Program-made: the position numbers and the translations under genes
In this document: positions 25,924 to 64,000 of the stretch, one piece after another
Layout of the letters: every line of letters starts with the position of its first letter
Position numbering within the stretch: position 1 is the first letter of the stretch
Source of the DNA: Leuctra nigra
Taxonomy: Eukaryota; Arthropoda; Insecta; Plecoptera; Leuctridae
DNA: 64,000 nucleotides
Reading direction: 5' to 3'
Assembly (NCBI GenBank): GCA_934045905.1
Contig: OW203765.1
Span: forward strand, 30,041,997-30,105,996
Notes under the pieces: model-generated
Databases searched by the model: none
What the model saw: only the letters and a program-made list of their open reading frames with translations
Told to the model about the DNA's origin: nothing

Positions 25924-26089
25924 GATATCACTTCTTTTGTTAGTTTATTCATACAGCTTGTAGCACAGCTTGTGTCCGTGCAAGAACTTATTTCTTTAAA
26001 AAAATACGCCTATGCCGATTTGGATACTTAGAAAAGTTGCGTTTGGTATATAAGATTAAAATAATTATCCAAGAAGAATAGCTTTAAGT

Positions 26090-26650: not shown

Positions 26651-27599
26651 TAATTATTTACAAAGTACGTTTACTTATATCTATTTTAAAGTATATAGTG
26701 GTGAATTTAGCGTCATTTAGCATATTTATGACGTCATTTCCGGTATAGGTCATAAAATGTGTGACGTCATTTCCGGTTTCGATATTTGAATCATCAAATA
26801 TTACTGATTACATAAAGTTGACCGTCTAAATCGTTTAGCGCTGGTTTTGTTCTAATCTGTTTAGCCGTTTTTGAGACATGATGTCACTTCCGGTTTCAAA
26901 ATGGCGGCTTCCGGTTGGTTTTATAACAAGTCAAATGAAATATCAAAAGTACAAACGTTACATAAATATCAAGACAATCGGATCAACTGTTGTTGCTGAA
27001 ATGCAAATCGATGTATATTAAATTTCATGACGTCATTTCCGGTTTATTTAAAATAATGTTCAGTCTTTTGATATTGATAATCCATATAGATGACCGTCTG
27101 AAACGATTGGCGCAAATTTCGTTCCGATCGGTCCAACCGTTGACGAGATATGACGTCACTTCCGGTTTCAAAATGGCGGCACAAAAAATTCATGGGGACA
27201 AGGTTAAATCAGACGCCAAAAGTGCACACGTGGTAAAAATGTGAGATCAATCGGTTCAGCCGTTTAGGCTGTGGCCTGTTTACCGGATTTTAGCTCCAGC
27301 CTACTACTACTAAGATTATTATTATGAAAACCGCCCTAAAACACTGTTTTCACGGCCCTCTAGCGCGCAAAGGGCGTAACCTATTGTTCCCAAATTTGGT
27401 ATATGTTGTAGGGTGGGCCATAGCTCGAAATTAAGATATTTCGCAACAATGTGAGATTTCTCAATTTTAAGATCCAGTAGGCCGAAAATGCCACTTTGAT
27501 GCTTACAGTAAAAGTGGGTTTGCTCCAGCCTTTATATGAGAGTGTGCGCGCGCCGTACGACTTGGCTGGCGTGGAGCGACCGCTCCACTAGATGATATA

Positions 27600-28730: not shown

Positions 28731-30105
28731 CCCATAAAAACACTCCGTGTAAAAATACCAGCCAAGTCTCTTCAATTAAAAAAAAATAGAAGAAATCTAA
28801 AAATTCAGCACTGAAAAGTAGTGATATCAAAAAATTGGCCAAGTCAAAACTTTTCAAAAAATACTTGGCGCATCGTGCATATAAATAGTATAGAAGTAGG
28901 CAGGAAATGAAATGTACTCATCTACACATGTCCTAAAAAAAACGATGCGCCAAGTATTTTTTGAAAAGTTTTGACTTGGCCAATTTTTTGATATCACTAC
29001 TTTTCAGTGCTGAATTTTTAGATTTCTTCTATTTTTTTTTAATTGAAGAGACTTGACTGGTATTTTTACACGGAGTGTTTTTATGGGGATATCACTCCTT
29101 TTTTCAGTTTATTATTACAACTTGTAACATATTGTGGCACAAAAGATTATAATTCTTTTAAAAAATAAGATTTTGTGATTTGGTTGCTAAGAAAAGTTGT
29201 GCTTGTTACTGTGTTAATGCTATAAATAATATGTTACAAAGTATAGCAAAAGTTTCGTTTCAATCGGTCCAGCCGTTCTCGAGTTACGGCATCACTTCCG
29301 GTTTTCAAAATGGCGGTTGACATCACTGCCACCTAAAATTTGTATCTATTATTTTATTAAGTCTATATTCTCAACAGAGCCAGGCTCCACTAGTGAGAAT
29401 GTAATATAGAGAAGGGAGGAGAGGAAACCCGGTACCGGCATGTAGCCTACTCCTGACGAAAGATACCAAGGGGACCAACGGCTTAACGTCCCTTCCGAAG
29501 GACGGTGTAACATTCACAGCACAGGCCTCCACAACCCGCGCCGTCGAGAGACTGATAACAGGTGGAGGGAGGTCGTCACACTGACCCCCAAACACCCCAG
29601 TCTCTCTGGCCCAACGGCAGCAACCTGGCAAGGTAGAGTTGAATGGTCACCCATCCAACCTCTGACCGCGCTCAATGTTGCTTAACCTCGGTGATCTAAC
29701 GAGAACCGAGGTATCCAACACACCAGCCGTTGGGTGTAATGTTATGTAACATTATAAGCCTTCTGAATATGTAGTTATTGATATAAGAGATGATTTTAGT
29801 CAGATTTGTCATTTTTATGACGTCATTTCCGGTTTAGGTTATAGAACATTTCTTCTTTCACTATTGGTATTCCTTATAGATGACCTTCTAAATCGAATGG
29901 CGCTAATTTCGTTCTAATCGGTCCAGCCGTTTTTGATATATGACGTCACTTCCGGTTTAAAAATGGCGGCACAAAAAATTTATAAGAACAAAGGTATTAT
30001 CAGACGCCAAAAGTGCACATGTGGTAAAATTTTCATATCGATCGGTTTAGCCGCTTAGGCTGTGGCGGTGATAGCAACGTTTCCTGATATCTGAATCTGA
30101 ATCTG

Positions 30106-35216: not shown

Positions 35217-35832
35217 TGAGCGAGGGAAGCGAGCGTCTCCTTTTGGCTCTTTTGGCACGGACGTTTTTTTTGTGTTTTTTTTTTGGCTGCTATCTGGAGC
35301 AATGGTAGTTGCACCGTTTCACCGATCGATCTGAAATTTTGCACACATGTAGAGACAACCTTTTCTGTTTGCAGGCCCCATTATTTTTTGAAATCCATTG
35401 ATTGGTTAAAATTTAAATAAACATCTCCTGATAGGCTGAAAAATTAAAACGGTCTTCGATATTTATGATCAAACTCATATTTTGCATGATCATTAAGACC
35501 ACCATTGTCTCTTATTTTACAAAATTTCATCCCAATCAGTTAAGAACGCATGAACCTATTGATATTTTTAATATCTGTCAGTAATGAAGTATCGAAATGA
35601 ATGTTTTCCAGAGCCAATTGAATTGAATCTGATTTGCTATATTTACCAGGGTACTTAGATGTTATTTTTAAGTTTCAATGAAAAGCATATAATTTTTTAT
35701 TGATTGAGGGATCATATTTCAATTTAATATGGATGTATATGTTTTCTTTGCGTTGTGTACGCATTTCCGGTTCGAGAATTTGCACGTACCCATGCTCGCT
35801 CATCAACGCGTTACACTGAGCGTTTTCCTAGT
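35217..35832 (+). mobile_element. Helitron-like family 2, copy 2
   Basis: It starts TGAGCGAGGGAAGCGAGCG and ends GCTCGCTCATCAACGCG...GAGCGTTTTCCTAG, the same termini as copy 1, but only 616 bp. It shares the phrase CTGAAATTTTGCACACATG and lies 37 bases from the 3' end of element C. Confidence 0.6.
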
Positions 35833-38387: not shown

Positions 38388-38472
38388 CTGATAAGAATAC
38401 TCGCTGATAAGGACTCTAAGATAACAATTTCAATATATTCCATACACATAATTATATCTGACTTGCCTAGAT

Positions 38473-39258
38473 ATGGCTTCCGACCGCTTGTCCGATGCTC
38501 TGGCTGCCATGAAAGTCATGAACGAGTCCCTGCTGCAACAACTGGAGTGCCCCGTCTGTCTGGAGACATGCATGCCACCCATCTTCATGTGCGTCAATGG
38601 ACATAACATCTGCTCCAACTGTCAAGCCGAAGTTCAAGAATGCCCCGTGTGCCGCTCTAGAGGCGCCCCAGCTATCCGCAACATTCCCATGGAAGGACTT
38701 TGTGACAAAGTAGTGATGCCATGCAAGTTTCATAAAGGTGGTTGTGAGGTGAAACTGGGTCTGAATGATTTGAAGAAGCATTATTCTGTATGCGAATACA
38801 GATATAGATGTATGTTAGATTGTGATTGGGTTGGACAAAGGGTTCCACTTCTCAATCATGTTAAAAAGAGTCATCCTGGATGTATATATGCATTGAATAC
38901 AACGTATACTTCGTATATTTGCTCCGACTCGGGTTCGGATAATAATCAAGTATTATTCTGCGAATTGAAACAAGATTTTTTTTGGTACATACATAACTAT
39001 ATTTCAGAAAGTATGACCAACTATGAGTGCATTCACTATATCGGCCCTGAGGAAAATGCTTCGAAATATAATATGATTAAGCAGTTTAGTTCAGAGGATG
39101 AGAAATCCACGGTTCTGACCTTCATCAGACCATGTCTCAGTTTAGAAGAAGATTTCATGTTAAGTGATAAAACAATCGTGGCACACGAGAGTGCTTTTGA
39201 AATGATAGCGGGAAAGAGTGAAATAATTAAAGAGCGATTAAATATAACAAAAAAATAA
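38473..39258 (+). CDS. SIAH/Seven-in-absentia-type E3 ubiquitin ligase
   Basis: A 261-residue intact single-exon ORF; a possible acceptor (TTGCCTAG) lies just before the ATG, so a 5' UTR intron is possible. Residues 26-60 form a SINA-type RING: C26, C29, C40, H44, C47, C50, C57, C60. Residues 84-134 form the paired SIAH zinc fingers (C84/C91/H103/C107 and C113/C117/H129/H134). The rest matches the position of the substrate-binding TRAF-like domain but is divergent. The family attaches ubiquitin to substrates for proteasomal degradation; the RING recruits the E2. Canonical SIAH is about 280-310 residues, so this is a short, divergent paralogue, perhaps of retroposed origin. A retroposon lies 85 bases upstream. 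The target is unknown. Confidence 0.9.
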   Translation: MASDRLSDALAAMKVMNESLLQQLECPVCLETCMPPIFMCVNGHNICSNCQAEVQECPVCRSRGAPAIRNIPMEGLCDKVVMPCKFHKGGCEVKLGLNDLKKHYSVCEYRYRCMLDCDWVGQRVPLLNHVKKSHPGCIYALNTTYTSYICSDSGSDNNQVLFCELKQDFFWYIHNYISESMTNYECIHYIGPEENASKYNMIKQFSSEDEKSTVLTFIRPCLSLEEDFMLSDKTIVAHESAFEMIAGKSEIIKERLNITKK

Positions 39259-40931: not shown

Positions 40932-43568
40932 CTAGTAGTTGTACCCTCCTTGCCCTTGTCCTCGACCTCCTGCCGCCGGGTAGCCACCCTGGGCCTCCTC
41001 GTAGCGGATCGTCGGCATGTACCCCTCGTTGTTGGCGACGTAGTCCACGATCTGGGTGCGGCCGTCGGGCAGGAGCACGTGGTAGGAGCCTCGAGCCTCG
41101 TCGCCCTCGCGGCTCTCTTGGTGGCCGAAGTTGGCGCCAGACTCATCGTCCTGGACCTCGTAGGTGAACTCGTAGTTAGCGGGCTCCTGAGGGAAGAGGA
41201 GGAGGAAGAGGTTTTATGTCGTGACTTGCTTTCAATAACGTCGTACTGTTCTGCCGCTGGACATATGGACGGATGAATGATGAAGATGAAGATGATAAGA
41301 TGGTGGGAACAGGGCGGTTGTGGTCTATTAGTGGTGAACCTTCCAGCATTTGCCTCTTGACTGAGGAAAACGTAAGTGGGACACAGACCAATAATTTGGA
41401 CAAACTGCAATCTTTTTGAAGAAGTCGATAATTCCTATATTAAGGATTTTTGCTATTTGTATTTCTTATCAACTGTTTTAAAATAGTAACCGCAAGATTT
41501 TACAAATATTTCAAACGTTAAGAAAATCGTATATATTTTACCGAATTGTACTAGAGTTGGTCAATTTGTTTTTTAATTACCTTGCAATCTAATCTTGATC
41601 GTATACACATGGCCTACATTTTAATTTTAAACCAATCGGAGCTGTTCAAAATTAAGTAATGATAATTCAATGATTCAAAATTTTAATTTTATTATTATAG
41701 ATAAAGAACCACCCATATGGCCTCACGAATTTTCAAAAAATTGTTAAAATTTCAACTTGATCATAGTAGCGGTTTGACTACATGGCGAACAGCCGAATCA
41801 TGTGAACGATCTTACTCACCGCCAGATCGTCGTCCTGTCCCGATCCCCTCGATCCCGGGTAGCCACCGAAGCCTCCGTTGCCGCCTCCATTACCGGCGGG
41901 TGCTCCGTACTGGTTGGAGGGTTGCTGTTGATAACCTCCACCTCCATGCTGTCCGCCGCCTCCGTGGCGACCTCCGCCGTTCTGATGACCTTGGCCGGGT
42001 GGCAGGTACTGCCTCGGGGAGGGAGGCTCGGCCAGGACGCCGATGGCGACCACCATCACGATCGCGATCACGAACTGAAAGTGGAGGTGATGTGGTTAGA
42101 GGATTATGTTTCTCAGATTGTAATTACAACTAGTCTGTACAAATAGCTGGAAATGTCACTGTTCTTCAAGACAGCATTGCGTCAGCTCCGATAATTAATG
42201 GACAATTTTGTTTTAAATTGATAAATGAAGAGATTTAATTTTTCCGTTAAAAACAACCCCAAACAAGGAATATAAATAGTCCTGAATAAGAGAAAACTTC
42301 TGTGATGTGCTCAAAGAATGAGATTTTAAAATGATAGAAAACCAATCAGCTGGTGGGTATTTTTACCAGAATTCTTACATACCTAATGTTTTCATTGATA
42401 TGAAATTATTGTTTAAACTTGTAGATGTCTCGTCCATGTGTTTTATTTTGTTAAATTATGTCTTGATTCAAACCAAAAACTATAATTATTTTCTTCACAC
42501 TGGACAAGTAATGCAAGCTGCGCTAGCCAGATGATCATTAGACCAGAAGATGTTGGGTGTCAGATAGCAGAGAAAGTGAATGCAGCGCAGATATCATCCT
42601 CGTGGTGTCAATTACTTTCATGTGCAACGAACATACGTCAATTAAAACTAGTTTTAACGACAAGGTAGATCTAGTGATAATATGTATATTGTGCAATCTA
42701 AAGATATTAGTATAATGGTATTTTGTAGTTGTTTGTTATTGATTTTTTTGATCGGATGATTATACCTTTTAGATGATTTAATTTCACTCTTCCTGATATC
42801 ATCTCTACAATCTGTCGAATGGATTCATAATTATATTTGGTAAATAATCAACTTCCTCTCGCGTTCGCTATTAAGGTTTACTTTTTGTTCAAAAATATCG
42901 ATTCAATAATCATATTTCTATGTAATTGCTATGCGATCATAGACTTTTTAAAAATTAATTTATATGTTATATCAAAATGGGTTCTAAACTCACTTTCAAA
43001 TGAGCCATACTTTAAATAGTTATTGTTCCATACCTATAACTTCCACAAATGAAGAATATTAATTTGGAAATTATTAATTAACTAGGTACCTTAGGTAGGT
43101 ATTCAAATAAAAAAGTTGCATAAAGTGGTCCCTGTGAAGAGTAATCACTGCAATGCAATATTAAAAATTTGATGAACGATATCGAAATAAATTTAATTGT
43201 CCCTTTTCTGTAATATTTGAGTTCTGTATTACCCCAGTTAAATAAAATTTTGTTCTGGATAACTGGATAATACAAAAGTGAACTGTTAAATGATAAATGC
43301 GTAAAACATTTTGCGAGTTCCAAAACGTTCAGTTTAAGTACGTAATAATTTAAAAAAAATCTTAGTTTCAATCTTTATGAAACTCACAAATCTTAATATT
43401 TCACACCAACATCCAAGAAAAGTAGGTGATTAATATGTTAAGGGTGAAAATCGTTTAAGTATAATAAGACACTTATATCACCCTTTTCTGTTTCACACTT
43501 ACTCTTTCTACGAACACACTTCTCTATAAGAATATTATATATATATATCTCACCTTAACTGTAGCCAT
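40932..43568 (-). CDS. Pro-resilin-like cuticular protein 2 (RR-2), complete
   Basis: Three phase-0 exons: 43568-43554 (MATVK), 42074-41820 (85 codons), 41186-40932 (84 codons plus TAG), making 174 residues. Splice sites are AAG|GTGAGA, TTTCAG|TTC, GCG|GTGAGT and CCTCAG|GAG. The signal peptide runs to about residue 20, then EPPSPRQYLPP, like the N-terminus of mature resilin. The Gly-rich middle has only one QYGAP motif. The last exon starts EPANYEFTYEVQDDESG and holds an RR-2 chitin-binding domain with LPDGRTQIVDY and NEGYMPTI. It shares exon number, phases, the DDLA|EPANYEF junction and the LPP motif with the gene at 13877-19009, so the two are paralogues, but this one has almost no elastic repeat. 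The poly(A) signal is probably at 40351-40356 (complement). Intron 2 carries a SINE fragment. Confidence 0.9.
41270..41385 (-). mobile_element. SINE type 2 fragment in intron 2
   Basis: Carries the body phrase TTTTCCTCAGTCAAGAGGCAA and the nearby AATAGACCACAACCGCC of the type-2 SINEs. The pol III head is missing. Confidence 0.5.
42080..43550. other. Intron 1 of resilin-like gene 2
   Basis: AT-rich, with no other feature recognised. Confidence 0.6.
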
Positions 43569-45288: not shown

Positions 45289-46135
45289 TTTGTTTGTTTG
45301 TTTTTTTTTTGCCTGCACTGCCCAGGTCAAACCGCACAACCAATCAATCTGAAATTTTGTACACATACTAACGTAATCTATGCGATCCCTGGGATCTTTT
45401 CTGAACGAGATCCTGTGATTGGTTCAAATTTTATAAAAATTATCTTTCGATTGGTTAGTTCGATCAATTTGAAATTTAGCAAAGTCATTGCAACCAACAT
45501 TGTACCTAATCAAAAAAAATTTCAGCCAAATCCTCCAATTGGTTCAAATTTGAAACCATTTTTCCTGTGATTTTTGAAATTTAAACTGGAACCGATTGAC
45601 CGACCAAATAAAAACTTCGCATGGTCATTGGTACCAACATTTATGATATTTTTGCCAATTTTCACTCTAATCTGTCGTTATTTTCAAAAGTTTTTGTCAT
45701 TTTAGGGACATTTTGCGTGTTGGCTGTCAAATTCACGGCGACTTCGAATCTACAGTTCAAGGCAAGGTAGTTAGAGCAGAAAGTTTTAAACGATATGAAA
45801 CTTATAATGACCGTTCAACAGATTGATCTGATATTGTGTACACACACTACATATCATATCATATGGGTGGTCCCAGGTATATTTTTTGAACGAGATCCTG
45901 TGATTTTCGAAAATTAACAAGGAACCGTTCAATCATAAAGGTTTAATCAATCAACTTAAAACTTAGCAAGGATTGGCACCAATATTTTTGGAGATTTTGG
46001 TGATTTTTATACAAGTCTGTGACGAAACTAAAGAATTATTGGCTTTTAATGACATTCGATAGACATAATTTCGGTTCGAGGTGTTGCGTGTATCCGTGCT
46101 CGCTCATCAACGCGTTTCACAGAGCGTTTTCCTAG
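45200..46135 (+). mobile_element. Helitron-like family 2, copy 3
   Basis: It starts TGAGCGAGCGTAGCGAGCG, then a long T run (45249-45308), and ends GCTCGCTCATCAACGCG...GAGCGTTTTCCTAG at 46135. The segment 45825-46060 is nearly the same as 10080-10310 in copy 1. Confidence 0.6.
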
Positions 46136-46404
46136 TTTAAATGTATGTACCAACTATACGATCAATTATGACTTTGGGTATAACTGGTTTTAAGATTCTA
46201 TGTATCTAAAATCTTAACTTTCAATTTAAATTGTGGTATTTATTGCCCAGATTCTACAGGTAGAAACGATCAGAAAATTATTTAAATAATCATTATTATA
46301 TAATATTATCAATTAATTGAAACTCATCAATATGTTTAACTTTTATTATCAAGCTCTGAACTCCTCCACCAACATGCATTTTAAACATCATGGTAGTCAT
46401 GGTA

Positions 46405-50489: not shown

Positions 50490-51600
50490 TTAACAAACGG
50501 ATTTTCCAGAAATTTTGATCAACATAATTTTATCCATGAAAATATAAATGCTAATTACCAACTGCAAATAGAAATAATTTACATGTAAAATCATCACCCT
50601 ATCAGAGGTGATCAGAGAAAACCACATTTAATATAATTAAAATCTATAGATATTTGATACGATATCGATATTTCTTGTGATATTTCTTGTACGATAACAA
50701 ATATGATTAATCTTCTCTCTCAAACATCCCCTGTCGACATCTTGCCTCTCACTCATCGCTGCATGGCTTTGGACATCACCGAGTAATAACCATGAGCACT
50801 TTTCACCTCCTGGTAAAGAAAATACAAAACATTCACGCATAATTAGGAGAGTGTCACCCACATTACACTTATGACACATTTTCTGTGTGTTTGTTTGTTG
50901 TTTGTGTTTTGTAGATAATACCCATTTAACACCCCCAGAGACCTGAAATTTTGTGAAGAAGAAAGGAAGAATGTTCGGTGCAACTTCAATATACGCTTTG
51001 TTTGATTTTTTTAATATCCTGTTTTTAAATTATTTTATTTTGTTCAAACATTATTTTCATGGTCTATGTTTGAAATATATACCTAGGTTTCTTTAAGGGG
51101 ATTCTAGGGGGGTATGAGATTTTAATTTCAGGGCAAATATTGTAAGAAGATGTCATCTGAGATCGATATTTAGCGAAATCAGCCCATTTTGGAAAGTCAA
51201 AAAAATATCCGGGACGATCCAAACTGGTCAAAGACGATTCACAGAAAAAATCGGAACTAAATAACCGTTGAACATAGCGACCTGAAACTTGGCATGAATA
51301 ATCATAATACATATACCTATGAAATGTCGACGTCCTTTTTCGGTTTTTAAATTGCATTTTTTTTAAAAATAAAGTCGGTATGTATCGGAAATTTTGCCTA
51401 TTTATTGGGGCCTGTGGCCAGGTAAGATATCAAGTAATTAACAAAAAAAGCGTCGACGTTTTCTTTGCATTCTCATAACGAAGACAACGAGCCCACTTGC
51501 AAGTCTTAAGAGTGAAAATTGCGGTCTGTGCGATTTTTTTAATGAAACAGCAATATCCGTAAAAAAAATTCGGGACCAAAATATTGGTGTCGAAAAAGGT
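50490..51600. other. Non-coding stretch
   Basis: No gene recognised. I looked for the missing last exon of the odorant receptor here, on the minus strand, and did not find a convincing one. Confidence 0.4.
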
Positions 51601-52076: not shown

Positions 52077-55000
52077 AGCAAGAAAATTTTCCATCGAAAA
52101 GGTCACAAAATCCATTGTTCTGATGACACCCGGTTGATTAGCCATCGACATCATGATCCGCATTGATCTCTTGAAACTCTCAGTAGCTTCGAACCAATCA
52201 CATCCGTAGACAGCCTCCCTAACACCTTCACTCTGTAACACGGAGAAATAATTATGTTATAAATTGGCGCCCAAACGTTGGGACTACATTGCCACCTGTT
52301 GAATTCTTACCGCATCTGTGAATATGTCACATATCCAGCAAAAGGCAGCAAACATTAGCGTTATAATTGTCAACCCTATGACAAACGCCCACGTTAACGC
52401 ATCCATGGATTGTACCTGTGTGAATTGAAAATAATTACTGTATTTTTGAATTTTATAAGTAATAGAATATTTTCTACATAAACAACTGGCATTTATTTTG
52501 GTATACCAAACTACATTTTTAAATGATTTACCGTCATTACACGTAGAAGTAAAAACGCTGACAGAAGAAGAAAACAAATTACTGTGCCGATCAAATTAGG
52601 TTGGCCAACTAGCAGTACTTGATTCATAATGCTGGAAAATTAACAGGTTATTTATGTACAATTGTGTAGTTTCATATGACGTCACAACAGCGTGTTATGT
52701 GATCGAACTAGCCTAAAATCGGCTTACCTGATCAGCTCCTGATGATGCTGGATGCATTCCTTCAGACGTCTCTCCATCTCCAAGTCAAGCTCACGCTTCT
52801 CTTCATCTGCATTCTCAATGATTCGATGTCGCTGATCTTTAATCAACTTCCAACCACAAGTTCTCTCATTCGAGACATCAGAAACATCGCCATGATGAAT
52901 GTCCAAGTGACTTAACTTCAATACTATTTGTGTTCCACTCTTCTCGGTAGAAACCCTCTTGTCAATATTGAGGTACTTACACATAACTTCATACCTTGTT
53001 TCCTCAATCTCATCTGGTAAAGTCGATGGTCCAAATGGATGTGTTTCTCCTTGACTTAACTCCATCACACCTCGATCAGATGGTGTTCGACTGTTCTCAG
53101 TCTTCTGGCGACGCTTGGCCATGATGTGCTCGAGACTGTCAGCTCCTCCTTGACTTAACTCCATCACAACTCGCTCAGCTGGTGTTCGACTGATCTCAGT
53201 CTTCTGGCGACGCTTGGCCATGATGTGCTCGAGACTGTCAGCTCGGATATTCAACAACTTGTTGCATAGAACACGGTATTGCCAGATGATATGGTACATA
53301 AACATAAACATAGTGTTTATAATAGTGGAGAAAATCAACACCAATGGGGATAAAGATATTAGATAGAGAGCCACCATTACTTCGCGAATAGGCGTCACTG
53401 ATGAATCAAATGGAAAATAGAATCTGTAAAAATTGCCAACATAAATAATTATATCCCAATAGCTAATAACCTCAAAATTCCCATAATAATCAAGCGAACG
53501 TCTAGGATTGAAACTATGGCATGGAATCTCTGTTTTTATTTTATCTGTGTGTGCTTTATTCATCTCCTGCCAAAGGAAGTAACGGATCAGGCAATTTTTT
53601 TTTTACATAACATTGCTATTTTGGTTGTGGACATAATAAGTTGCAGCAAGCTCGGTCCAATAGTTACATTGAAAATTGGATTATGGTCCTTAATGAAATC
53701 TACTACGAAAGTTATAAAATTGTGCCACATCAAATTATGCAACACACTGTAATAGATGACTATGTCTGGTATACGACCTTCAAGTGTAAAATACGATATC
53801 AATCGAAAAAATTTCGGATTTAAAAAAATTCGAAAACGTGAGAGAGAACTTTATGAAAGACACAGCCATCATAAAATGGGTGCCACAAAGACACGTTATA
53901 ACATTACTAGGAAAACGCTCGGGGTAACGCATTGATAAGCGAGCACGGATATACAGAACATCAAAGATGATCTACCCGAAAATCCGTAAAGAATCCCTGA
54001 ATAATCACGGTAATTATAGACGAGCCCGCACGGCTAAAAACGTGATCAGGTAAATGAAGGAAGAACACTACCTACAGAATGTCCAAATGGATGTTATATT
54101 CCTTCTTCATCTCCTATGTGATCTTTTATTTGGTAAATGAAGGAAGATGACACACAGAAGTTTAATTATACATCACGATCAAAGCTGTACGGACGTCTGG
54201 AGGTCTATTTTAGAACGATTTTCCAATTCCATTCTGATGGAATTCAGTCACGGCCATAAGGATTAACATCGGATAGAATTGAATTCTAGTGGAATTGGGA
54301 ATTTAAAAGTTCTAGAATAGGGCCCAGGTCTTAATTGCCATAATCACTTGCAGGATCACAGAAAAGTTTAGATTTTCTTTAGATTCTGGAAAGATTGTCA
54401 CAAAACCTAATGCATGGTAAACCGTTTGACCTGGGCAGTGCAGGCAAAAAAACACACACATAGAAAATGTCAGAAGAGTTCCGTGCTCATTAAACTAATG
54501 TTTTGTTCTTCAGTCAGATCTGGCAAGCAAACATTTCAAAATTCTACAATCTGCTAATTTGTTTAGGATATTCCTCACGATAAAAATATTATATATAATT
54601 GTCAAATACATTATAACTATTATTTATATTATTATTATTTATTATAATTATAATAATAATACAAACTAATCATTATTATATTATTTTATTATAAGAAAGT
54701 ATAAAAATTTAATTTAATATCATTATAATTTAATGCTTATTTAATTCTATGTTTTTCGTAAATAGCTTAGATCTGATGTGTGAGGAGGGGGATGCTAGTG
54801 GTTAATTCTTACCCCACTGAAATTAGTAAATGACCTGCGAAACAATGGCTCCATATAGCATTCGAAGTATTTAAGACAAATATTATATAAGTGCTATGCA
54901 TGGCATAGTTCAGTATTGAATCAGCCCATCTCTTCGCATTTAGCACGGTCATTCTGTCTCTTCTACTTGATGAATACTTATTAATAACTTCCTGTAACTT

Positions 55001-58000
55001 GGAGTACCCAGACCACAGCTCTTCGGGACGCCAGTAAAAGTTGAAAAAATGCACAAAATAATGTAAGAATGTAATAAAATAAACTATTGATGAGATCCCA
55101 TTGCTGAGGTCTTCAAAGTGTAGATAAAAGTACGGGATACGACTTATCATCTCGTAGAATATCTCAGCAACTACAATACGAGGCAGATAATACCTCAGTT
55201 TGTTCTTCATGTTGTTCTTTGATTCATAATTGTAGTCACTCATCCCTAAGGAAAGAAACGATATTTATAGGTACGAGGTTTCAAAGTTTACGGACTGGAA
55301 GTGTTATAAATGGAGTGTGATTTTAGTGGGACTTATTTAAGGCATGTCTAAGAGAGTCTCGAGAAATTTAAATTAAATAATAAAGGTTATTTTATGAAAG
55401 TTAAGATGTTGCAGAACATTGTAATATTTTTGATGTGAATATGACCTGCGAAACAATGGCTCCAAATGCCATTGCTCCAAATGCCATGCCAAATGCCACA
55501 TATTTCACATATTGTGAATATGTGAATATTTTTATTTTTTATTTTTTAACCACAAGGCCGTGGTTTGATACAGTTGGAAGGAAGAACTGCTGCTGAATTA
55601 ATTGTATTTTATGGAAATTCAGTACTGTTTGTGATTTGAAGAGCATCAACTTTGGAAGGAAAGGCAAGAGGAACAATTTGAGGTAAAAATCGTGAAAATT
55701 GAATGTTTTTTGGTTATATAATTTGAATGCCAATGTAAATTCATTGAGTCCACTTATTAGAATTTATTGTGAGACAAAGGAACATTGTTCACGGTGAAGT
55801 GGATTGTGATTTTTAAAATCAAGGCCACTAGAGCATGGAGAGGAATTTACGATCAAAAAAGAAGGGAGATTTGAGTGCAGGGGCTAAGAAGGATAAGAAC
55901 AGCAGAAGAAGCAGAACGAGGGAAACTTCACCAGGAAAAGAAGTGGAAACACAGCAAGTTCAAACAAAGCTTGTAAGTAAATCAAACTCGTTGTTGGGAC
56001 CGCAATGTGATCATGATTTCTTGGTTACAGAGGTTAAGGAAATGAGAGAAGAAATGAAAGAGCTTAGAAATGAGGTGAAAGAACTTAGTAAGAAGTCAGA
56101 AAGGGAAGAGAATGAAGCTTGTGACATGTTTGGAGATGTAATACTATGGGAAATGGAAATGGAGGAAAAGGTTAAACATTTGAATGAAATATTATGTATG
56201 AATGAAAGAGAAAATCGATTAGCATGTGTGCAGATAGCCGTTTGGAAAGAAGAACTTGAATCTAAGAGCAACAAGATCTTGATGGAAATATACCGATTGG
56301 AACAAGAGTATATTGGAGAGCAAGTTAAAGAGATTAAGAGGAGGGAAGCTGAGTGTTCAGATAGTGTGGACATCAGAATGAAAAGTTTGGAAGAAATGAA
56401 TGAGATGGTTGATAGGTCTGGAATATTGGTGATAGAAAGAGAAGAAACGCAGGAAGGGTCAATATGTGGAATATATTTGATTGAGAAGGCAATAACTATT
56501 CAAGAAGAAGACAATTCAGAGGAAGGAGGGATTGAAGGGTTACAATCTTGTCTAGGAGTGACTGAAAATGAACGAGGTGAACAACTCGTTGAGAACACAA
56601 CTACTATTATTCAGGAAGAGGAAGTAAATTCAGAGGAAGAAGGACATGGAGGGTTACAGCCTCTGACAGGAGTAACGGAAAATGAACGTTTTGGGCAGAG
56701 CGTGACTCTATTGATGGGCGATGTGAGCAAAAGTGAGGCCGAGGAGTTCTGCAAAGAAGTAGGAAATGAGGCAAGAATTGATCCGGGAATCAGAATACAG
56801 GAGATGGCAATAAGAATGAAAAGTCAGTTTTATTCCAGTAGTAGGAATAATGCCAAGACTGTCTTATTGAAGATTGGGAATGCGGATGTGAGAGCTGGAA
56901 GAAACAGGATTGAGATAATGAAGGACTTCGAAGAATTATTGCATGCAGCATGGGTATTTTTCGGTCCAAATGTAGAGATAATTCTTTTTGGACTTCAAAG
57001 TGAATCAGGAAAGTTCCTTAATAAAGAAATTAAATTCATTAGTGAGGGTATGGGTTGTGAATTCATAGAGATTGAATATACACCAGGATATAAAACGAAC
57101 AGATGGGAGTGGCAGAAGGAAGTTGGACGAAAGATGAGAATGGATATGGAAGGAAACGTTGGAGTAAAATCAATGTCTTTTATCAACACAAGTTGGAAAA
57201 AGGGATGGTATAATAGAAATGCAGTGGAAACAGAAGTTAATGGAATGAGTACTGGAACTATAACTATACAGCGAGATGAAGAGAATGAGCACAGATCAGG
57301 GAATCAGGTTTTTGGAGTCGAGTTGTGAAGAGAAGAACCAGGTGACTCTCGTCGAAGAGACCGGAGGACGAAAAACGAAAGAAAGGAATAAAGGGAAGAG
57401 AAAAGGGGGAATGAAAGTGAGAATGAATGAAGGAAAGAAAATAGGAAAAATAACAGAGTTCAGCATTGGAACGTTGAATATAGTAACTTTAAATGGTAAG
57501 ATTCATGAGATTGTGGATGTGATGAAGGAGAAGAAATTGAATATAATGGGTCTGAGCGAGTCAAAGTGGAAGGGACAAGGAGAGAAGCAGTTGAGAGAAG
57601 GTTACAAGTTGTGGTGGTCAGGGGGAGAAGAAGGAAAGAATGGGGTTGCAGTTGTTGTGGATCCGAGTTTAAAGGACTGTGTCATTGATGTGCAGTATAC
57701 TAATGATAGAATCATGGCAATGAAGATAAAGGTTAATAAGAGTTCTGTTGTGGAAATACTTCAAGTGTATGCGCCTCAGACGGGAAGACCAGTGGAAGAA
57801 AAAGAATCATTTATTGAAGACTTGGAAAGGGTTCTAATAACAAAGAAGAATGTAATATTGATTGGAGACTTCAATGCTAAGATTGGGATTGATAAGACTG
57901 GATACGAAGGCATCATGGGTGATTTTGGTCTTGGCAGCAGAAACAGAGATGGTGAGAAGTTGCTAGAGTTGTGTGGCAGAAACTCGCTTCAAATTGGAAA

Positions 58001-61000
58001 TAGCTTGTTTAAAAAGAGGAAAAGTCATCAGATCACGAGGTACGGTTACGGAGAAGATCGAACCGAATCAGTAATTGATTATATTTGTATTGGGAGAGAC
58101 ATTGGTATGTTTCTAATGGATGTGCGAGTTTTCCCATCAGTAGCTATTGACAGCGATCATAGATTATTGGTGGGGAAGTTTAGAATTGAAATGCCTAGAC
58201 GCTTGATCAGGTATAAAAATAAAAGACTTAAGATTTGGAAACTTCAAGAAAAAGAAGTTCGAATAGAGTTCATACAGGAACTTTGTATGAGGCAACCAAT
58301 GGGAGATGTCAAGGAAGTGGAAGAGGAATGGAATGATTTTAAATCAGCGTTTGTTGATTGTACAGAGAAAGTGTGTGGAAGGGCGAGAGGAAGAAAGAAG
58401 GAAAAGGAGACCAGATGGTGGAATGAAAGAGTACGAGAAGCGGTTGCTGAAAAACGTCGAGCCTGGCAAAAGAAGGAATTGCAAAATTCATTAGAAAATG
58501 CTATATTTTACAGAAGATGTAAGGGTAGAGTACAGAGGATTGTTGGTGAAGAAAAGAAGAAATCTATGGAAGAGTTAGCAGTGAAACTGGAACTTGATTT
58601 TGAAGGAAACAAGAAAATGTTATACAGTATAATCAAATCAAGAAGACAGCAACGGGACAACCAGTCCTATATGAAAAACGATAGAGGTGAAATGATTACA
58701 AATACAAGGGAAATATTATGTTTATGGCAGAAATATTTTTCAGATTTGTTGAATGTAAAAGATGATGATATGACAACGAGCAAGATAACATGTGCTGTAG
58801 AAGAAGAGGATCATTATGTGAATGAGGACGATGAAAATAGGGTACAGGAAGAACAGGATTTGAGTGAGGCGGAAGTATATCGGGCTTTATACGATATGAA
58901 GAATGGAAGATCACCGAGGTGGGATGATGTAACAATGGATATGGTGAAAGCAGCTGGGGAAGTTGGAATGAAATGGCTATATCGTGTAATAAAAGCTGTT
59001 TGGATGCAGAAAAAGGTTCCAGATGATTGGGGCAAAGGAATTATTGTGCCTTTGTTCAAGAAAGGGGACAAGAAGAAATGTTCTAATTACAGAGGAGTTA
59101 CTCTAATGTCTCAGACAGCCAAGGTATTTGAGAAAGTATTAGAATTCAGGGTATCGGAAATGATTGAAGATGGGTTAAGAGAAGAACATTGTGGATTTAG
59201 GAAGAGGAGATCAACGATAGATGCATTGTTTGCAGTGAGAAGAATAATGGAGAGAAGATGGGACGGAAATGAAGTAATGAAAATGGTTTTCCTTGATTTG
59301 GAAAAGGCGTATGATCGTTTACCAAGAATGAGGGTGTGGGAATGTTTAAAAACGAATGGTGTTGGTTTAGGAATGATTGGCAGGATTCAAAGTTTGTACA
59401 GGGATAGTTCAAGTTGTGTGCAAACTGAGATTGGGACGTCAGAATGGTTTCAGGTTGGTGAGGTATTAAGACAGGGTAGTGTGTTGTCACCAACATTATT
59501 TCTGGTGGTAATGGATGAAATGTTGAGAAGAGTGGAACCGACAGGAGAAGATACAAGAACTATAATCTACGCGGATGACATCATGGTATGGGGGGAGAGT
59601 AGCGAGGAGGTTCAGAAGAAGGTTGACGAATGGAGCAGAGTGACAGAAGAGTTTGGTCTGAAGATAAGCCTGGAGAAGAGCGAGGTGTTAGTCATGGAGA
59701 GAAAGGCAAATGTTATGGATCGGAGCAGGATTAGAGTGAGGGGACAAGAACTGCAAGAGAAGAAAGAATTTAAATACCTGGGCAGTATGTTAACCAATAA
59801 TGCAACTATTGGGAGAGAAATCCAAGCAAGAATAGTTAAGGCTGAAGGTTTCTATCAGTCAGTAAGAAAATTGCTTTGGAGCGCAGAATTCCCATTAAGA
59901 TGTAAACTGTTGATATTTAAACAGTACTTCTTACCAATATTAACATATGGAGCTGTTTCCTGGAATGTTGGGGAGAAAGAGGTTGGCCAGCTACAAGCTT
60001 CAGAGATGAAATTTCTTAGAAGTGCAAAAGGAGTGACTAAGTTGGACAGAATTAGAAGTTCAAAGATTAGGAAGGAATTGGGTGTGGAGAGATTGGGATT
60101 TAAGTTGGGGAGGGAGAGATTGAGGTGGTTTGGTAACATGAAGAGAATGGATATTGGAAGGATGGCCAGAACAGAGTTGGAAGCAATAAATGTGATAAGA
60201 AAGAGAAGTGTTGGAAGGCCTAGAGCGCAGTGGAAGAGCTTGATTGAAGAAGATGTGAGTGCAAGAGGAGAAGACTGGAAGATGGTTGAGGGGAAAGTTG
60301 GTGGGAAAATAGCGACATATGGAATGGTTTAATTATGAAGATGGAGGAGGAAGAAAGTGAGGAGGAAGAAGATGAAGAAATATCAACCGGTCCGGCTAGC
60401 CGATTGAGAAATGTATAGCCTTAGTATGTCTGGTTAGGCAGTGAATGTAATTATGTAATGTAATTTATGAATTGTCTTACCCAAATAATATTTGGAACCA
60501 GGGTTTGGAAATAAAAAAAAAAATTTGATGTTTCAAGGAATTAATTAACAAAATTTGATACATTTCTTCATATTTTAAAAAAGGAAAATTGAAATCAACA
60601 ACACAATTTGCTATATTGTCCTGTCAACAAAGTAAGGACTATGGCAACACATTGTTGGGAACTTCTAAATTACATCACAGTTCTGATTCTAGTTACGTGC
60701 CGTTTAAGAGGCAAACGGACGCGAACGGGAATCGCACGGTTCGTCAGAGCGTTTTTTAGAAATTTGGTCTTCCCACTAAATAATTTAAAAAAATCAGATT
60801 GTAACGACCCATTACAGCCTAAAAGACTAAATAATGCCACATACTGGAGAACTTTATGATCTCTGGTGCGACCTCAAAGTTTTAAATACAATTATTTTAC
60901 TAAAAAAATATCGTATTTAACACTTTGAGATCGTACCAGAGGTCATAATGAACTCCAGTGTGCGGCATTATTTAGTCTATTAGGCTGTAATAGGTCGTTA

Positions 61001-61742
61001 CTATATCTGATTTTTAATTATTTAGTGGGTAAGACACATTTTCAAAAAAAACGCTCAGACGAACCGTGCGATTCCCGTTCGCTTCCGTTTGCCTCTTAAA
61101 GTTTGGATTGAATACATACCATGAAACCAAACATATCGATTAGCGATTGTAATGAAAGTAGTTTTAGATATTTAAAATATTATAAAATATAATAAATTTT
61201 ATGTGTAAATCGATTATAAATTGTACTAAAATCTTGTTTAATTTAACTAAATTCAGGCCATAAACTGGCCAACTATTATAATATTTTACCTTCTGCTTAA
61301 AACTACCGAAACAACAAAAATATTCAGCACGTAACTGGATTTAGAAATATTTGAAAATGTGTAATAAAATATTTCAAAATTAACACAAAAATAAGCATAT
61401 TTTTTAAGATTTGGACGGTAGGCAACTAAAAAGGAGTGGACCCTGTAAAATATCCTACGGGGGAGGGGGGGGGGGGTATGGTAGGGCGAAACTGAAGTTA
61501 CACCACTGAGATTCCGCCCCATGGTTTCTTCTAAAAATTTCCATAAATCGGCGTCGATGTCCCAACAAAATACTTTTTAAATAAACAAAATATCCAAGAT
61601 ATTTGTCATTCCAAAGACCTTACAGACAAGTGGTGTTCTATAAACTCTTACCTAGACTGCGCACAATCTTCATCATCTTATCAAACACTTTGAGATCATC
61701 TTCCAGTTGCTCCTCGCTACTTTCAACATCAGCTCGCGACAT
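52077..61742 (-). CDS. Insect odorant receptor, multi-exon, last exon not found
   Basis: Exons in transcription order: 61742-61652 (31 codons, ends phase 1), then 53777-52728 (TM1-TM4 and a long loop), 52631-52532, 52415-52311 and 52232-52077, with matching phases and GT-AG sites. Diagnostic parts are the ECL2-like PFDSSVTPIREVM, the exon with LLVGQPNLIGTVICF, the TM6 exon, and the TM7-side exon with YGCDWFEATESFKRSMRIMM and SMENFLA, as in 7TM_6 receptors. Such receptors pair with Orco as odour-gated cation channels in sensory neurons. The final exon (a few dozen residues) is not found. The large exon has a one-base shortfall in an A10 run (53595-53604): eleven As would keep the frame. An in-frame loop expansion makes the protein longer than the usual about 400 residues. 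Alternative exon 54813-55245 also fits exon 1. Intron 1 contains a LINE and a Helitron-like copy. Confidence 0.75.
53045..53242 (-). repeat. 99-bp in-frame tandem duplication in the receptor loop
   Basis: Two 33-residue units, each starting ADSLEHIMAKRRQKTE and ending MELSQG. They differ at a few residues (for example EISRTPAERV versus ENSRTPSDRG). The period is exactly 99 bases, so the frame is preserved. Confidence 0.9.
53908..54497 (-). mobile_element. Helitron-like family 2, inverted copy in receptor intron
   Basis: Plus-strand CTAGGAAAACGCTCGGGG...TAAGCGAGCACGGATA is the inverted 3' end. At 54424-54460, GACCTGGGCAGTGCAGGC and AAAAAAACACACACA match the inverted 5' part of copy 3. The 5' terminus is decayed (GTGCTCA). 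Confidence 0.5.
54813..55245 (-). CDS. Odorant-receptor-like exon, TM1-TM3 (alternative or second gene)
   Basis: A strong acceptor (TTTCTTTCCTTAG|GGATG) opens in phase 1, so exon 1 (61652-61742) could join it to give ...RSLG-MSDYNYESK. The 144-codon open frame has three hydrophobic segments and the receptor-like stretch RPEELWSGYSKLQEVINKY after TM2, then TM3. It ends at GTGGG|GTAAGA in phase 2. No following exon encoding ECL2/TM4 is present before the Helitron-like copy at 53908-54497, and its phase does not fit the GAG ATG site at 53566. It is either the front of a separate, broken receptor, or an alternative exon. Its TM1-TM2 part aligns in layout with that of the exon at 52728-53777, suggesting an old tandem duplication. 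Confidence 0.55.
54830..55464. repeat. 24-bp direct repeat around receptor exon
   Basis: The 24 bases beginning ATGACCTGCGAAACAATGGC occur at 54830-54853 (inside the 3' part of the exon at 54813-55245) and again at 55441-55464, just left of the LINE. Confidence 0.9.
55835..57328 (+). CDS. LINE ORF1: coiled coil plus degenerate SGNH-esterase-like domain
   Basis: 497 residues. The N-terminus is basic (about 1-55). A heptad-rich coiled coil spans about 65-190, as expected for a trimerising LINE ORF1. An acidic linker (about 195-285) contains two similar segments, one ending GVTENERGEQ and the other GVTENERFGQ. The C-terminal third has the order of an SGNH/GDSL esterase: LLMGDVSKSE (295-297 is GDV where GDS is expected), DPGIRIQEM, then TVLLKIGNADVRAGRN (GNAD at 348-351 in place of GxND), then EIILFGLQ. 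Esterase domains are known in ORF1 of some LINEs; here the nucleophilic Ser is replaced by Val, so catalysis is unlikely. ORF2 starts before this ORF ends, suggesting reinitiation or shifting. Confidence 0.75.
   Translation: MERNLRSKKKGDLSAGAKKDKNSRRSRTRETSPGKEVETQQVQTKLVSKSNSLLGPQCDHDFLVTEVKEMREEMKELRNEVKELSKKSEREENEACDMFGDVILWEMEMEEKVKHLNEILCMNERENRLACVQIAVWKEELESKSNKILMEIYRLEQEYIGEQVKEIKRREAECSDSVDIRMKSLEEMNEMVDRSGILVIEREETQEGSICGIYLIEKAITIQEEDNSEEGGIEGLQSCLGVTENERGEQLVENTTTIIQEEEVNSEEEGHGGLQPLTGVTENERFGQSVTLLMGDVSKSEAEEFCKEVGNEARIDPGIRIQEMAIRMKSQFYSSSRNNAKTVLLKIGNADVRAGRNRIEIMKDFEELLHAAWVFFGPNVEIILFGLQSESGKFLNKEIKFISEGMGCEFIEIEYTPGYKTNRWEWQKEVGRKMRMDMEGNVGVKSMSFINTSWKKGWYNRNAVETEVNGMSTGTITIQRDEENEHRSGNQVFGVEL
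57276..60332 (+). CDS. LINE ORF2: AP endonuclease and reverse transcriptase
   Basis: 1018 residues, no breaks. The apurinic-type endonuclease domain (about 60-305) has the start-motif region FSIGTLNIVTLN, the substrate motif GLSESKW, GDFNAKIG (GDFN at 197-200) and the catalytic SDH (293-295). The reverse transcriptase (about 555-800) has the IIVPLFKKGD fingers motif, NYRGVTLMS, FLDLEKAYDR with the first catalytic Asp, LRQGSVLSPTLF, and YADD at 765-768. The C-terminal part has FKYLGS, LTYGAVSW and RLRWFGNMKRM, then GRPRAQW. This organisation and the absence of an RNase H domain fit RTE-like elements; the clade needs a tree. The protein nicks target DNA and copies the LINE RNA in place. All catalytic residues I can check are present. 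Confidence 0.9.
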   Translation: MKRMSTDQGIRFLESSCEEKNQVTLVEETGGRKTKERNKGKRKGGMKVRMNEGKKIGKITEFSIGTLNIVTLNGKIHEIVDVMKEKKLNIMGLSESKWKGQGEKQLREGYKLWWSGGEEGKNGVAVVVDPSLKDCVIDVQYTNDRIMAMKIKVNKSSVVEILQVYAPQTGRPVEEKESFIEDLERVLITKKNVILIGDFNAKIGIDKTGYEGIMGDFGLGSRNRDGEKLLELCGRNSLQIGNSLFKKRKSHQITRYGYGEDRTESVIDYICIGRDIGMFLMDVRVFPSVAIDSDHRLLVGKFRIEMPRRLIRYKNKRLKIWKLQEKEVRIEFIQELCMRQPMGDVKEVEEEWNDFKSAFVDCTEKVCGRARGRKKEKETRWWNERVREAVAEKRRAWQKKELQNSLENAIFYRRCKGRVQRIVGEEKKKSMEELAVKLELDFEGNKKMLYSIIKSRRQQRDNQSYMKNDRGEMITNTREILCLWQKYFSDLLNVKDDDMTTSKITCAVEEEDHYVNEDDENRVQEEQDLSEAEVYRALYDMKNGRSPRWDDVTMDMVKAAGEVGMKWLYRVIKAVWMQKKVPDDWGKGIIVPLFKKGDKKKCSNYRGVTLMSQTAKVFEKVLEFRVSEMIEDGLREEHCGFRKRRSTIDALFAVRRIMERRWDGNEVMKMVFLDLEKAYDRLPRMRVWECLKTNGVGLGMIGRIQSLYRDSSSCVQTEIGTSEWFQVGEVLRQGSVLSPTLFLVVMDEMLRRVEPTGEDTRTIIYADDIMVWGESSEEVQKKVDEWSRVTEEFGLKISLEKSEVLVMERKANVMDRSRIRVRGQELQEKKEFKYLGSMLTNNATIGREIQARIVKAEGFYQSVRKLLWSAEFPLRCKLLIFKQYFLPILTYGAVSWNVGEKEVGQLQASEMKFLRSAKGVTKLDRIRSSKIRKELGVERLGFKLGRERLRWFGNMKRMDIGRMARTELEAINVIRKRSVGRPRAQWKSLIEEDVSARGEDWKMVEGKVGGKIATYGMV
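60707..61096. mobile_element. 390-bp palindromic element, TA target site
   Basis: The ends AGAGGCAAACGGACGCGAA and its near-exact inverse are flanked by TA (60705-60706, 61097-61098). The arms, about 175 bases each, share GGGAATCGCACGGTTCGTC and TAAATAATGCC, and meet at a small loop near 60890-60905. No ORF of note. Confidence 0.8.
61100..61650. other. Non-coding stretch
   Basis: Receptor intron 1 sequence, AT-rich, with a G-run at about 61460-61476. Confidence 0.4.
61652..61742 (-). CDS. First coding exon of the odorant receptor
   Basis: ATG at 61742, then MSRADVESSEEQLEDDLKVF and on to KIVRSLG, ending AGTCTAG|GTAAGAG in phase 1. The ending R-S-L-G fits the end of the receptor N-terminus just before TM1, and both candidate second exons start in phase 1. 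The first 13 codons lie inside the proximal unit of the 154-bp tandem array; the remaining 17 codons are unique. In the distal array units the shared part is followed instead by SCVR and a stop. Confidence 0.65.
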
Positions 61743-63679
61743 TCTGAGTCGTGTCATCAGCAGAGATGTAGTCGAGGTTCTTGCAACTCACAACACTCAC
61801 ACAGAACGCGTACACTTGGCGAGAACAGACTGTAAGAAGTCACTATCTGACACAAGACAGTTGTTCCTCGCTACTTTCAACATCAGCTGACATTCTGAGT
61901 CGTGTCATCAGCAGAGATGTAGTCGAGGTTCTTGCAACTCACAACACTCACACAGAACGCGTACACTTGGCGAGAACAGACTGTAAGAAGTCACTATCTG
62001 ACACAAGACAGTTGTTCCTCGCTACTTTCAACATCAGCTCGCGACATTCTGAGTCGTGTCATCAGCAGAGATGTAGTCGAGGTTCTTGCAACTCACAACA
62101 CTCACACAGAACGCGTACACTTGGCGAGAACAGACTGTAAGAAGTCACTACCTGACACAAGACAGTTGTTCCTCGCTACTTTCAACATCAGCTCGCGACA
62201 TTCTGAGTCGTGTCATCAGCAGAGATGTAGTCGAGGTTCTTGCAACTCACAACACTCACACAGAACGCGTACACTTGGCGAGAACAGACTGTAAGAAGTC
62301 ACTATCTGACACAAGACAGTTGTTCCTCGCTACTTTCAACATCAGCTCGCGACATTCTGAGTCGTGTCATCAGCAGAGATGTAGTCGAGGTTCTTGCAAC
62401 TCACAACACTCACACAGAACGCGTACACTTGGCGAGAACAGACTGTAAGAAGTCACTATCTGACACAAGACAGTTGTTCCTCGCTACTTTCAACATCAGC
62501 TCGCGACATTCTGAGTCGTGTCATCAGCAGAGATGTAGTCGAGGTTCTTGCAACTCACAACACTCACACAGAACGCGTACACTTGGCGAGAACAGACTGT
62601 AAGAAGTCACTATCTGACACAAGACAGTTGTTCCTCGCTACTTTCAACATCAGCTCGCGACATTCTGAGTCGTGTCATCAGCAGAGATGTAATCGAGGTT
62701 CTTGCAACTCACAACACTCACACAGAACGCGTACACTTGGCGAGAACAGACTGTAAGAAGTCACTATCTGACACAAGACAGTTGTTCCTCGCTACTTTCA
62801 ACATCAGCTCGCGACATTCTGAGTCGTGTCATCAGCAGAGATGTAGTCGAGGTTCTTGCAACTCACAACACTCACACAGAACGCGTACACTTGGCGAGAA
62901 CAGACTGTAAGAAGTCACTATCTGACACAAGACAGTTGTTCCTCGCTACTTTCAACATCAGCTCGCGACATTCTGAGTCGTGTCATCAGCAGAGATGTAG
63001 TCGAGGTTCTTGCAACTCACAACACTCACACAGAACGCGTACACTTGGCGAGAACAGACTGTAAGAAGTCACTATCTGACACAAGACAGTTGTTCCTCGC
63101 TACTTTCAACATCAGCTCGCGACATTCTGAGTCGTGTCATCAGCAGAGATGTAGTCGAGGTTCTTGCAACTCACAACACTCACACAGAACGCGTACACTT
63201 GGCGAGAACAGACTGTAAGAAGTCACTATCTGACACAAGACAGTTGCTCCTCGCTACTTTAAACATCAGCTAGCGACATTCTGAGTCGTGTCATCAGCAG
63301 AGATGTAGTCGAGGTTCTTGCAACTCACAACACTCGCACAGAACGCGTACACTTGGCGAGAACAGACTGTAAGAAGTCACTATCTGACACAAGACAGTTG
63401 TTCCTCGCTACTTTCAACATCAGCTCGCGACATTCTGAGTCGTGTCATCAGCAGAGATGTAGTCGAGGTTCTTGCAACTCACAACACTCACACAGAACGC
63501 GTACACTTGGCGAGAACAGACTGTAAGAAGTCACTATCTGACACAAGACAGTTGTTCCTCGCTACTTTCAACATCAGCTCGCGACATTCTGAGTCGTGTC
63601 ATCAGCAGAGATGTAATCGAGGTTCTTGCAACTCACAACACTCACACAGAACGCGTACACTTGGCGAGAACAGACTGTA
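61705..63679 (-). repeat. 154-bp tandem array of the receptor's 5' leader and start codon
   Basis: About 12.8 near-identical units; equivalent points are at 61705, 61859, 62010, then every 154 bases to 63550. One unit (from 61859) lacks three bases (in-frame, within the ATG-linked codons). Others differ by single changes. On the minus strand each unit has a TTCTTACAG acceptor-like site, TGTGTGAGTG donor-like site, a leader, and ATGTCGCGAGCTGATG followed by codons to CAACTG. In all but the proximal unit the frame ends TCTTGTGTCAGATAG (17 codons). Plus-strand frames of 120 codons in the array are by-products of 154 not being a multiple of three. Confidence 0.9.
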
Positions 63680-63880
63680 TGAATTTAATATCTTATCTAT
63701 ATTGCATTGCCCAAGTACTGTTTCTTTACACAGTTTTACAATTGCAAATGACACGCGCCGACAATTTGAGTTTGTTTACAGCTGGTTGCTAGGATACATA
63801 GCATGTAAGCATATGATATGAGTGATAGAATAACTATCGTTGCATAAAATATTAAAACAATATGCGACAACAGAGTAACT
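63680..63880. other. Unique flank beyond the tandem array
   Basis: Unique sequence just upstream (in receptor sense) of the outermost unit, where the original promoter would be expected. I see no clear TATA plus initiator pair. Confidence 0.4.
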
Positions 63881-63881
63881 A

Positions 63882-64000
63882 GGAAACCACTAAGTGTAAC
63901 GCGTTGATGAGCGAGCACCGATACGTACAACGTCACAAACCGAACATGGTCCACTTTACCAAATATACCATCATTATAACTGATTTTCTTTGCAACTTTC
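63882..64000 (-). mobile_element. Helitron-like family 2, inverted copy, cut by window end
   Basis: CTAGGAAACCACTAAGTG...ACGCGTTGATGAGCGAGCA is the inverted 3' terminus of the family. The rest lies outside the window. Confidence 0.55.

Follow-up and report, generated by a model that had tools for sequence, protein, structure and literature searches.

A stretch of 64,000 nucleotides from the plecopteran insect Leuctra nigra (assembly GCA_934045905.1, contig OW203765.1, positions 30,041,997 to 30,105,996 of the forward strand; referred to here as the window and numbered from its first letter) carries a predicted odorant receptor (OR) gene on its minus strand, of which the first exon starts inside a tandem array of thirteen near-identical units. 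Each unit repeats a block composed of the 5' leader of the gene, its start codon and the remainder of its first 13 codons, and only the copy closest to the gene continues into the rest of the exon. The array is probably a minisatellite that was born next to the promoter from the receptor gene's own leader. This reading depends on the structure of the array, on the attribution of the first exon to the receptor gene, and on the direction in which sequence passed between the two.

Anatomy of the array and its start codons

Tandem Repeats Finder reports the array at 61704-63683, with a period of 154, 12.9 copies, a 98% match and a score of 3876. When unit boundaries are set at the recurring TACAGTCTG and read along the minus strand, 13 units are obtained, starting at 63679, 63525, 63371, 63217, 63063, 62909, 62755, 62601, 62447, 62293, 62139, 61985 and 61834. 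Eleven of these units measure 154 bp and unit 12 measures 151 bp; unit 13, which is proximal to the gene, departs from the array after position 131 and runs into in-frame exon sequence that is absent from the array. The 131-bp block comprises the leader, the ATG and 12 further codons, with 3 nt lacking in unit 12, and consecutive blocks are separated by a 23-nt linker that is present at neither end of the array. The array length of 1,976 bp is accounted for by 13 × 131 + 12 × 23 − 3, the 3 bases being those absent from unit 12. An earlier note on this DNA, made from the sequence alone, had described a thirteen-fold array of a 154-bp unit at this place, which both the repeat finder and the unit-by-unit cut confirm. 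It had also equated the repeated unit with the leader, ATG and first 13 codons of the gene, which holds for the 131-bp block but not for the linker, as this is found only between units.

The mean pairwise difference among units 1 to 11 is 1.24 in 154 positions (0.8%), which fits the recent expansion or ongoing homogenisation that the same note had read from the near-identity of the units. Seven variant events were counted: T36C, G100T, G111T and A125G in unit 3, C64T, which units 1 and 7 share and which is taken as one event, A143G in unit 10, and a loss of 3 nt from unit 12. Exon 1 differs from the shared block by a single synonymous change, A125G; a G is found at position 125 in exon 1 and unit 3, and an A in the other 11 array units, indicating that unit 3 may be an older copy. 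When one unit is compared to the window (blastn, E ≤ 1), it matches the array and, in addition, only 25 bp at 7910-7934 with 88% identity. An exact 27-nt word of the unit has no match in viral and prokaryote contigs, a result that has little bearing on an insect satellite. Minisatellites and local tandem duplications are recognised by head-to-tail, near-identical copies at one locus, and 13 such units are present here.

The repeated block also multiplies start codons. The earlier note counted some 12 upstream open reading frames of 17 codons; this frame is found exactly in 10 of the 12 array units, the exceptions being units 3 and 12, but the count is incomplete. An extra in-frame ATG is located 15 nt upstream of the described start in the units printed, extending the frame to 22 codons in intact units (MTRLRMSRADVESSEEQLSCVR), and a third ATG per unit opens a different frame of 28 codons (three units printed). 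Altogether, 38 ATGs are encountered from 63679 to the main start, and 36 of them precede the two start candidates of the proximal unit. The receptor may start at the ATG at 61757, five residues earlier than described. The base at −3 is an A for the ATG at 61742 and a C for that at 61757, and by standard rules the former should be the better start.

The receptor gene model and its predicted first exon

The gene was modelled by hand from seven exons (Table 1), which join into a protein of 545 amino acids with a sole, terminal stop, six GT-AG introns and phases that all agree. The splice sites were chosen to keep a receptor-like frame, and the agreement of the phases is, therefore, a consistency check and not independent proof. 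The six acceptors have pyrimidine fractions of 0.62-0.88, the highest being that of exon 2, and the six donors match 6-8 of 9 consensus positions. Exon 7 was selected among 27 listed candidates by its acceptor and by comparison with receptor C-termini. Open frames at 53587-53850 and just below were dropped as exons and assigned to an intron, as the acceptor at 53423 keeps phase without them.

The joined protein matches the Pfam family 7tm_6 (PF02949) in two stretches, with E = 4.9e-28 and 98.5 bits against a cut-off of 25.8. Taken in pieces, the open reading frame (ORF) of exon 6 alone exceeds the Pfam cut-off, and the ORF of the exon-4/5 region has no 7tm_6 match. From about residue 387 onward the joined protein matches 10 PDB sequences at E ≤ 0.1 (best 9.1e-6), every one of which bears the name of an odorant receptor or Orco, and in 9 of the 10 the alignment extends to residues 539-541 of 545. 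Hydropathy windows of at least 1.0 give six peaks, as compared to the seven transmembrane segments typical of the family. A protein-collection search with the receptor yielded 6842 candidates that share words with it and none at E ≤ 10. At the level of sequence, the family match confirms the predicted gene model as a member of the insect odorant receptor family.

The gene contains a second tandem duplication besides the leader array. Exon 3 holds an in-frame 99-bp duplication (53047-53244; two copies, 95% match) that adds 33 residues, probably in the second intracellular loop. Separately, a 23-nt stretch near the end of exon 2 (GGAGCCATTGTTTCGCAGGTCAT, 54852 on the minus strand) recurs identically at 55463 in intron 1, about 200 nt upstream of exon 2.

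A scan for first exons compatible with exon 2 covered the minus strand from 64000 to 55260 and required an ATG with a purine at −3, a length of 40-200 nt, a phase 1 end and a donor matching at least 7 of 9 consensus positions, a cut-off that was fixed after exon 1's own donor score of 7 was known. Exon 1 is the one candidate in 55260-64000, and the whole minus strand of the window contains eight. When the donor threshold is lowered to 6, or when the requirement on the ATG context is dropped, exon 1 remains the sole candidate in 55260-64000. Phase, donor and lack of competitors thus support the statement of the earlier note that the proximal unit enters a first exon of an odorant receptor gene (61652-61742), and judged on these grounds the predicted exon 1 is well supported as part of the receptor gene. 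The acceptor- and donor-like sites that the note had seen in the units are also found. The donor-like sites match at most 6 of 9 consensus positions and the acceptor-like sites have pyrimidine fractions of 0.62-0.69, scores that resemble the gene's weaker true sites and carry no shuffle control; on this basis, the skipping of units by splicing is possible but not indicated.

Several observations weigh against the attribution of exon 1 to the receptor. Relaxing the donor and the ATG context together yields 12 candidates, 11 of which are short frames within array units. Exon 1 alone has no Pfam match, the first 195 residues of the joined protein have no PDB match at E ≤ 10, the exon-2 ORF has no 7tm_6 match, and the exon-3 ORF alone has no PDB match at E ≤ 1. 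It is thus mostly exons 3-7 that carry the family match, which by itself provides no link between exon 1 and the receptor. Furthermore, exon 2 opens with its own in-frame ATG, and given this ATG, exon 1 could be dispensable. A rival explanation is that exon 1 belongs to no functional receptor transcript, the exon 2 ATG being the true start and the array intergenic, or that the copy number of the array is a product of mis-assembly. The position of the exon 2 ATG, which adjoins the acceptor, is compatible with the former; for the latter, near-identical arrays are often mis-sized, and the single 200-N gap in the window (11342-11541) indicates a scaffolded assembly. However, the gap is far from the array, which is located within continuous sequence, and the nearest repeat found in the window begins about 200 bp past its distal end. 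Units 3, 10 and 12 each have private variants, and the strong acceptor before exon 2 (0.88) is as found for an internal exon. Both artefact and wrong wiring thus appear highly improbable.

Table 1. Positions in the window of the receptor gene, the leader array and the retrotransposon of intron 1
Feature	Positions	Strand	Remarks
Tandem array	61704..63679	-	13 blocks of 131 bp and 12 linkers of 23 nt; unit 154 bp
Unit 3	63218..63371	-	most divergent array unit; 4 substitutions, of which one is A125G as in exon 1 and one gives a stop after 6 codons
Unit 12	61835..61985	-	3 nt fewer; frame of 16 codons versus 17
Leader of proximal unit	61743..61834	-	second in-frame ATG at 61757; in-frame stop at 61790-61788; ACAGTC at unit positions 2-7
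Exon 1	61652..61742	-	30 codons and 1 nt, MSRADVESSEEQLEDDLKVFDKMMKIVRSL followed by G; donor TAG/GTAAGA; first 39 nt are array sequence
Exon 2	54813..55245	-	433 nt; phase 1 in, phase 2 out; first two bases finish a glycine
Exon 3	52728..53423	-	696 nt; 7tm_6 E = 0.0096 for its ORF (weak, below cut-off)
Exon 4	52532..52631	-	100 nt
Exon 5	52311..52415	-	105 nt
Exon 6	52077..52232	-	156 nt; 7tm_6 E = 2.1e-10 for its ORF
Exon 7	50753..50809	-	57 nt including stop; EVKSAHGYYSVMSKAMQR
LINE-type retrotransposon, intron 1	55832..60332	+	opposite to receptor gene; stop-free frames of 498 and 1022 codons

Origin of the array and its possible activity

If the array arose from the gene, a 131-bp piece comprising the leader, the ATG and the first 13 codons would have been tandemly duplicated once, with the duplication junction gaining 23 nt, either as filler or as diverged upstream flank. 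Unequal exchange or slippage would then have raised the resulting 154-bp unit to 13 copies, and homogenisation would keep these uniform. With a filler junction, the original upstream sequence of the gene would now be located past 63679, at a distance of about 1.9 kb from the start codon in use. The receptor frame is undamaged because the remainder of exon 1 still follows on from the proximal copy, and the extra units would mostly be neutral passengers. Should the gene indeed have come first, an orthologue is expected to have a single-copy leader and a MSRADVESSEEQL-like start.

The confinement of the linker to the space between units fits a single duplication with a 23-nt junction, and it also fits other histories; it is thus not diagnostic. 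An alternative is that the linker represents the old upstream flank, and here the alignment statistics conflict. Compared in register with the distal flank, 10 of the last 14 linker bases match (P = 0.0006 versus random places in the window), as do 12 of all 23 (P = 0.007), whereas a free local alignment of the two is not significant (P 0.20-0.29). Other sources of the linker were rejected: it has no significant alignment to the end of exon 1 or the start of intron 1 (P 0.80 and 0.91), and as templated filler its longest words in common with the block and with 321 nt of distal flank both measure 6 nt (P 0.57 and 0.95), while no word of at least 6 nt is shared with the 303 nt downstream.

In the reverse history, an array of a 154-bp satellite would have expanded upstream of the gene, or inserted there, and exonisation of its proximal monomer would have provided the receptor with a different leader, start codon and first 13 codons. 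In that case, the older start would be downstream, at Met23 or Met24 of exon 1 or at the ATG of exon 2, and in-frame ATGs that could have served as such do exist. A length of 154 bp is a common size for satellite monomers, and the 13 codons belong to the part of exon 1 that is without a detectable family match. On the other hand, the window contains no further copy of the unit, which would be compatible with dispersed copies elsewhere, and the start codon of the block opens a frame that continues through 17 further codons of the exon to a good donor, making it the sole first-exon candidate in 8.7 kb under the strict scan. An origin of the array as a satellite is, on balance, unlikely. Two special classes of satellite were tried and rejected. 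For a ribozyme satellite or retrozyme, Rfam gives 0 matches at E ≤ 5 in 61500-64000 on both strands; the CTGATGA of the leader, which resembles a hammerhead core, was without a match in that search. For a structured-RNA satellite, the unit folds no better than shuffled versions of itself (z 0.51; 133 of 200 shuffles equal or surpass it).

Returning to an origin from the receptor's leader, the question arises where transcription of such a gene would begin. A transcript that starts beyond the array and is not spliced would encounter 36 upstream ATGs, and consequently productive transcripts most likely either start within the proximal unit or close to it, or lose the distal units by splicing. An initiator-like ACAGTC is found once per unit at positions 2-7, DPE-like words are present in the unit but not at the expected spacing, and no match to a strict TATA pattern is present in 63601-64000, the AT-rich TATAGATAAG of the distal flank falling outside that pattern.

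These elements could also be read as a functional stack in which every unit provides a core promoter and distal transcripts carry start-codon decoys (the 22-codon frames) that lower or block translation of the receptor. Unit number and the choice of start site would then tune output, in the manner of the promoter copies of ribosomal spacers. The unit does hold a leader, the initiator-like ACAGTC and two in-frame ATGs, and four of the seven variant events are located in the 39 nt that derive from coding sequence, a weak hint of constraint on the leader (P = 0.07). Precedents of a kind are the promoter duplications of ribosomal DNA (rDNA) spacers, reported to enhance transcription (PMC1215480), and ant OR promoters, which are bidirectional, with readthrough giving rise to non-translated OR transcripts (PMC12393541). 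Against such a stack stand the lack of a strict TATA pattern in 63601-64000, the misplaced DPE-like words, the absence of RNA structure beyond chance, and the stopped frame of unit 3, by which the encoded peptide is not kept in every unit. A functional stack is thus quite unlikely. In its full form, the array would be a working device of up to thirteen stacked core promoters and start-codon copies, with receptor made from the proximal copy alone; output would be set by the firing unit and by unit number, a length-variable rheostat possibly differing between individuals. This proposal is decidedly unlikely.

A neuron normally expresses a single member of the odorant receptor family. If the array is transcribed, it provides a natural experiment on the effects of repeated leaders and decoy start codons on such a receptor. 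It is possibly a length-variable element at the translation start of a chemoreceptor, so that individual differences could link directly to receptor output. If neutral, it shows all the same that the frame of a gene can persist next to a dozen repeats of the gene's start.

Beyond the array, the window contains several further elements. The 1022-codon frame of the LINE-type element in intron 1 (Table 1) encodes an endonuclease/reverse transcriptase (RVT_1, E = 5.2e-32) and the 498-codon frame has no significant family match; the element is perhaps young. Intron 1 also contains a foldback element at 60703-61100, with 55-nt inverted repeats that are 96% complementary and with additional inner inverted repeats. 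About 200 bp past the distal end of the array, a dispersed repeat at 63878-63948 has stretches of 81-83% identity at 35762-35832, 46070-46137, 10333-10399 and 53906-53951. A second tandem array is located at 26089-26658 (118-bp unit, 4.8 copies, 93% match). Matches to non-coding RNA include a 5S rRNA-like sequence at 29609-29734 (42.1 bits, minus strand) and a tRNA-Ala(GGC) at 25127-25199, each of which may be either a gene or derived from a SINE. Among protein-coding frames, two on the minus strand belong to insect cuticle proteins (Chitin_bind_4; 13880-14407 and 40935-41213), a repetitive QYGAPS-rich frame on the same strand matches DUF4794 (16439-17665), and a seven-in-absentia-like RING/zinc-finger frame is found on the plus strand (38452-39258; Sina_RING, E = 3.1e-13).

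Comparison with known systems

The human TYMS gene has a 28-bp repeat in its 5' leader, with 2R and 3R alleles, which resembles the array as a variable-number leader repeat immediately before a start codon. It differs in that its unit is short, its copies are few, and the start codon is outside of the repeat. Insect minisatellites and satellites share with the array the head-to-tail arrangement of near-identical units of about 150 bp, kept uniform by concerted evolution.

Tandem amplification is also a feature of OR genes in ants and bees, where one transcription unit can cross several receptor starts; in ants, readthrough across these starts yields untranslated transcripts and the promoters are bidirectional (PMC12393541). 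In those arrays whole genes are repeated, whereas in L. nigra the repetition is restricted to the leader, start codon and 13 codons. A repeated leader and start codon of a chemoreceptor was not found described in searches of the open-licence PubMed Central literature, judged by titles and the openings of abstracts, which is no proof that no description exists.

The closest working analogue is the ribosomal intergenic spacer, in which duplicated core promoters upstream of the gene are reported to enhance transcription in Drosophila and others (PMC1215480). In both cases, a promoter-proximal piece of a gene is repeated in tandem upstream of that same gene, and in rDNA the number of repeats varies. 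The two nevertheless differ in several respects. The rDNA spacer serves RNA polymerase I and a non-coding product, its promoter effect is reported and its unit is not known to contain a start codon; the unit described here extends over the ATG and 13 codons of a gene that encodes a protein, and its promoter role is putative. What sets the array apart from ordinary minisatellites and satellites is that a coding exon compatible with a recognisable gene begins in its proximal unit. The array is probably a promoter-proximal minisatellite, and an unusual one, since its unit takes in the start codon and the first 13 codons of a receptor gene.

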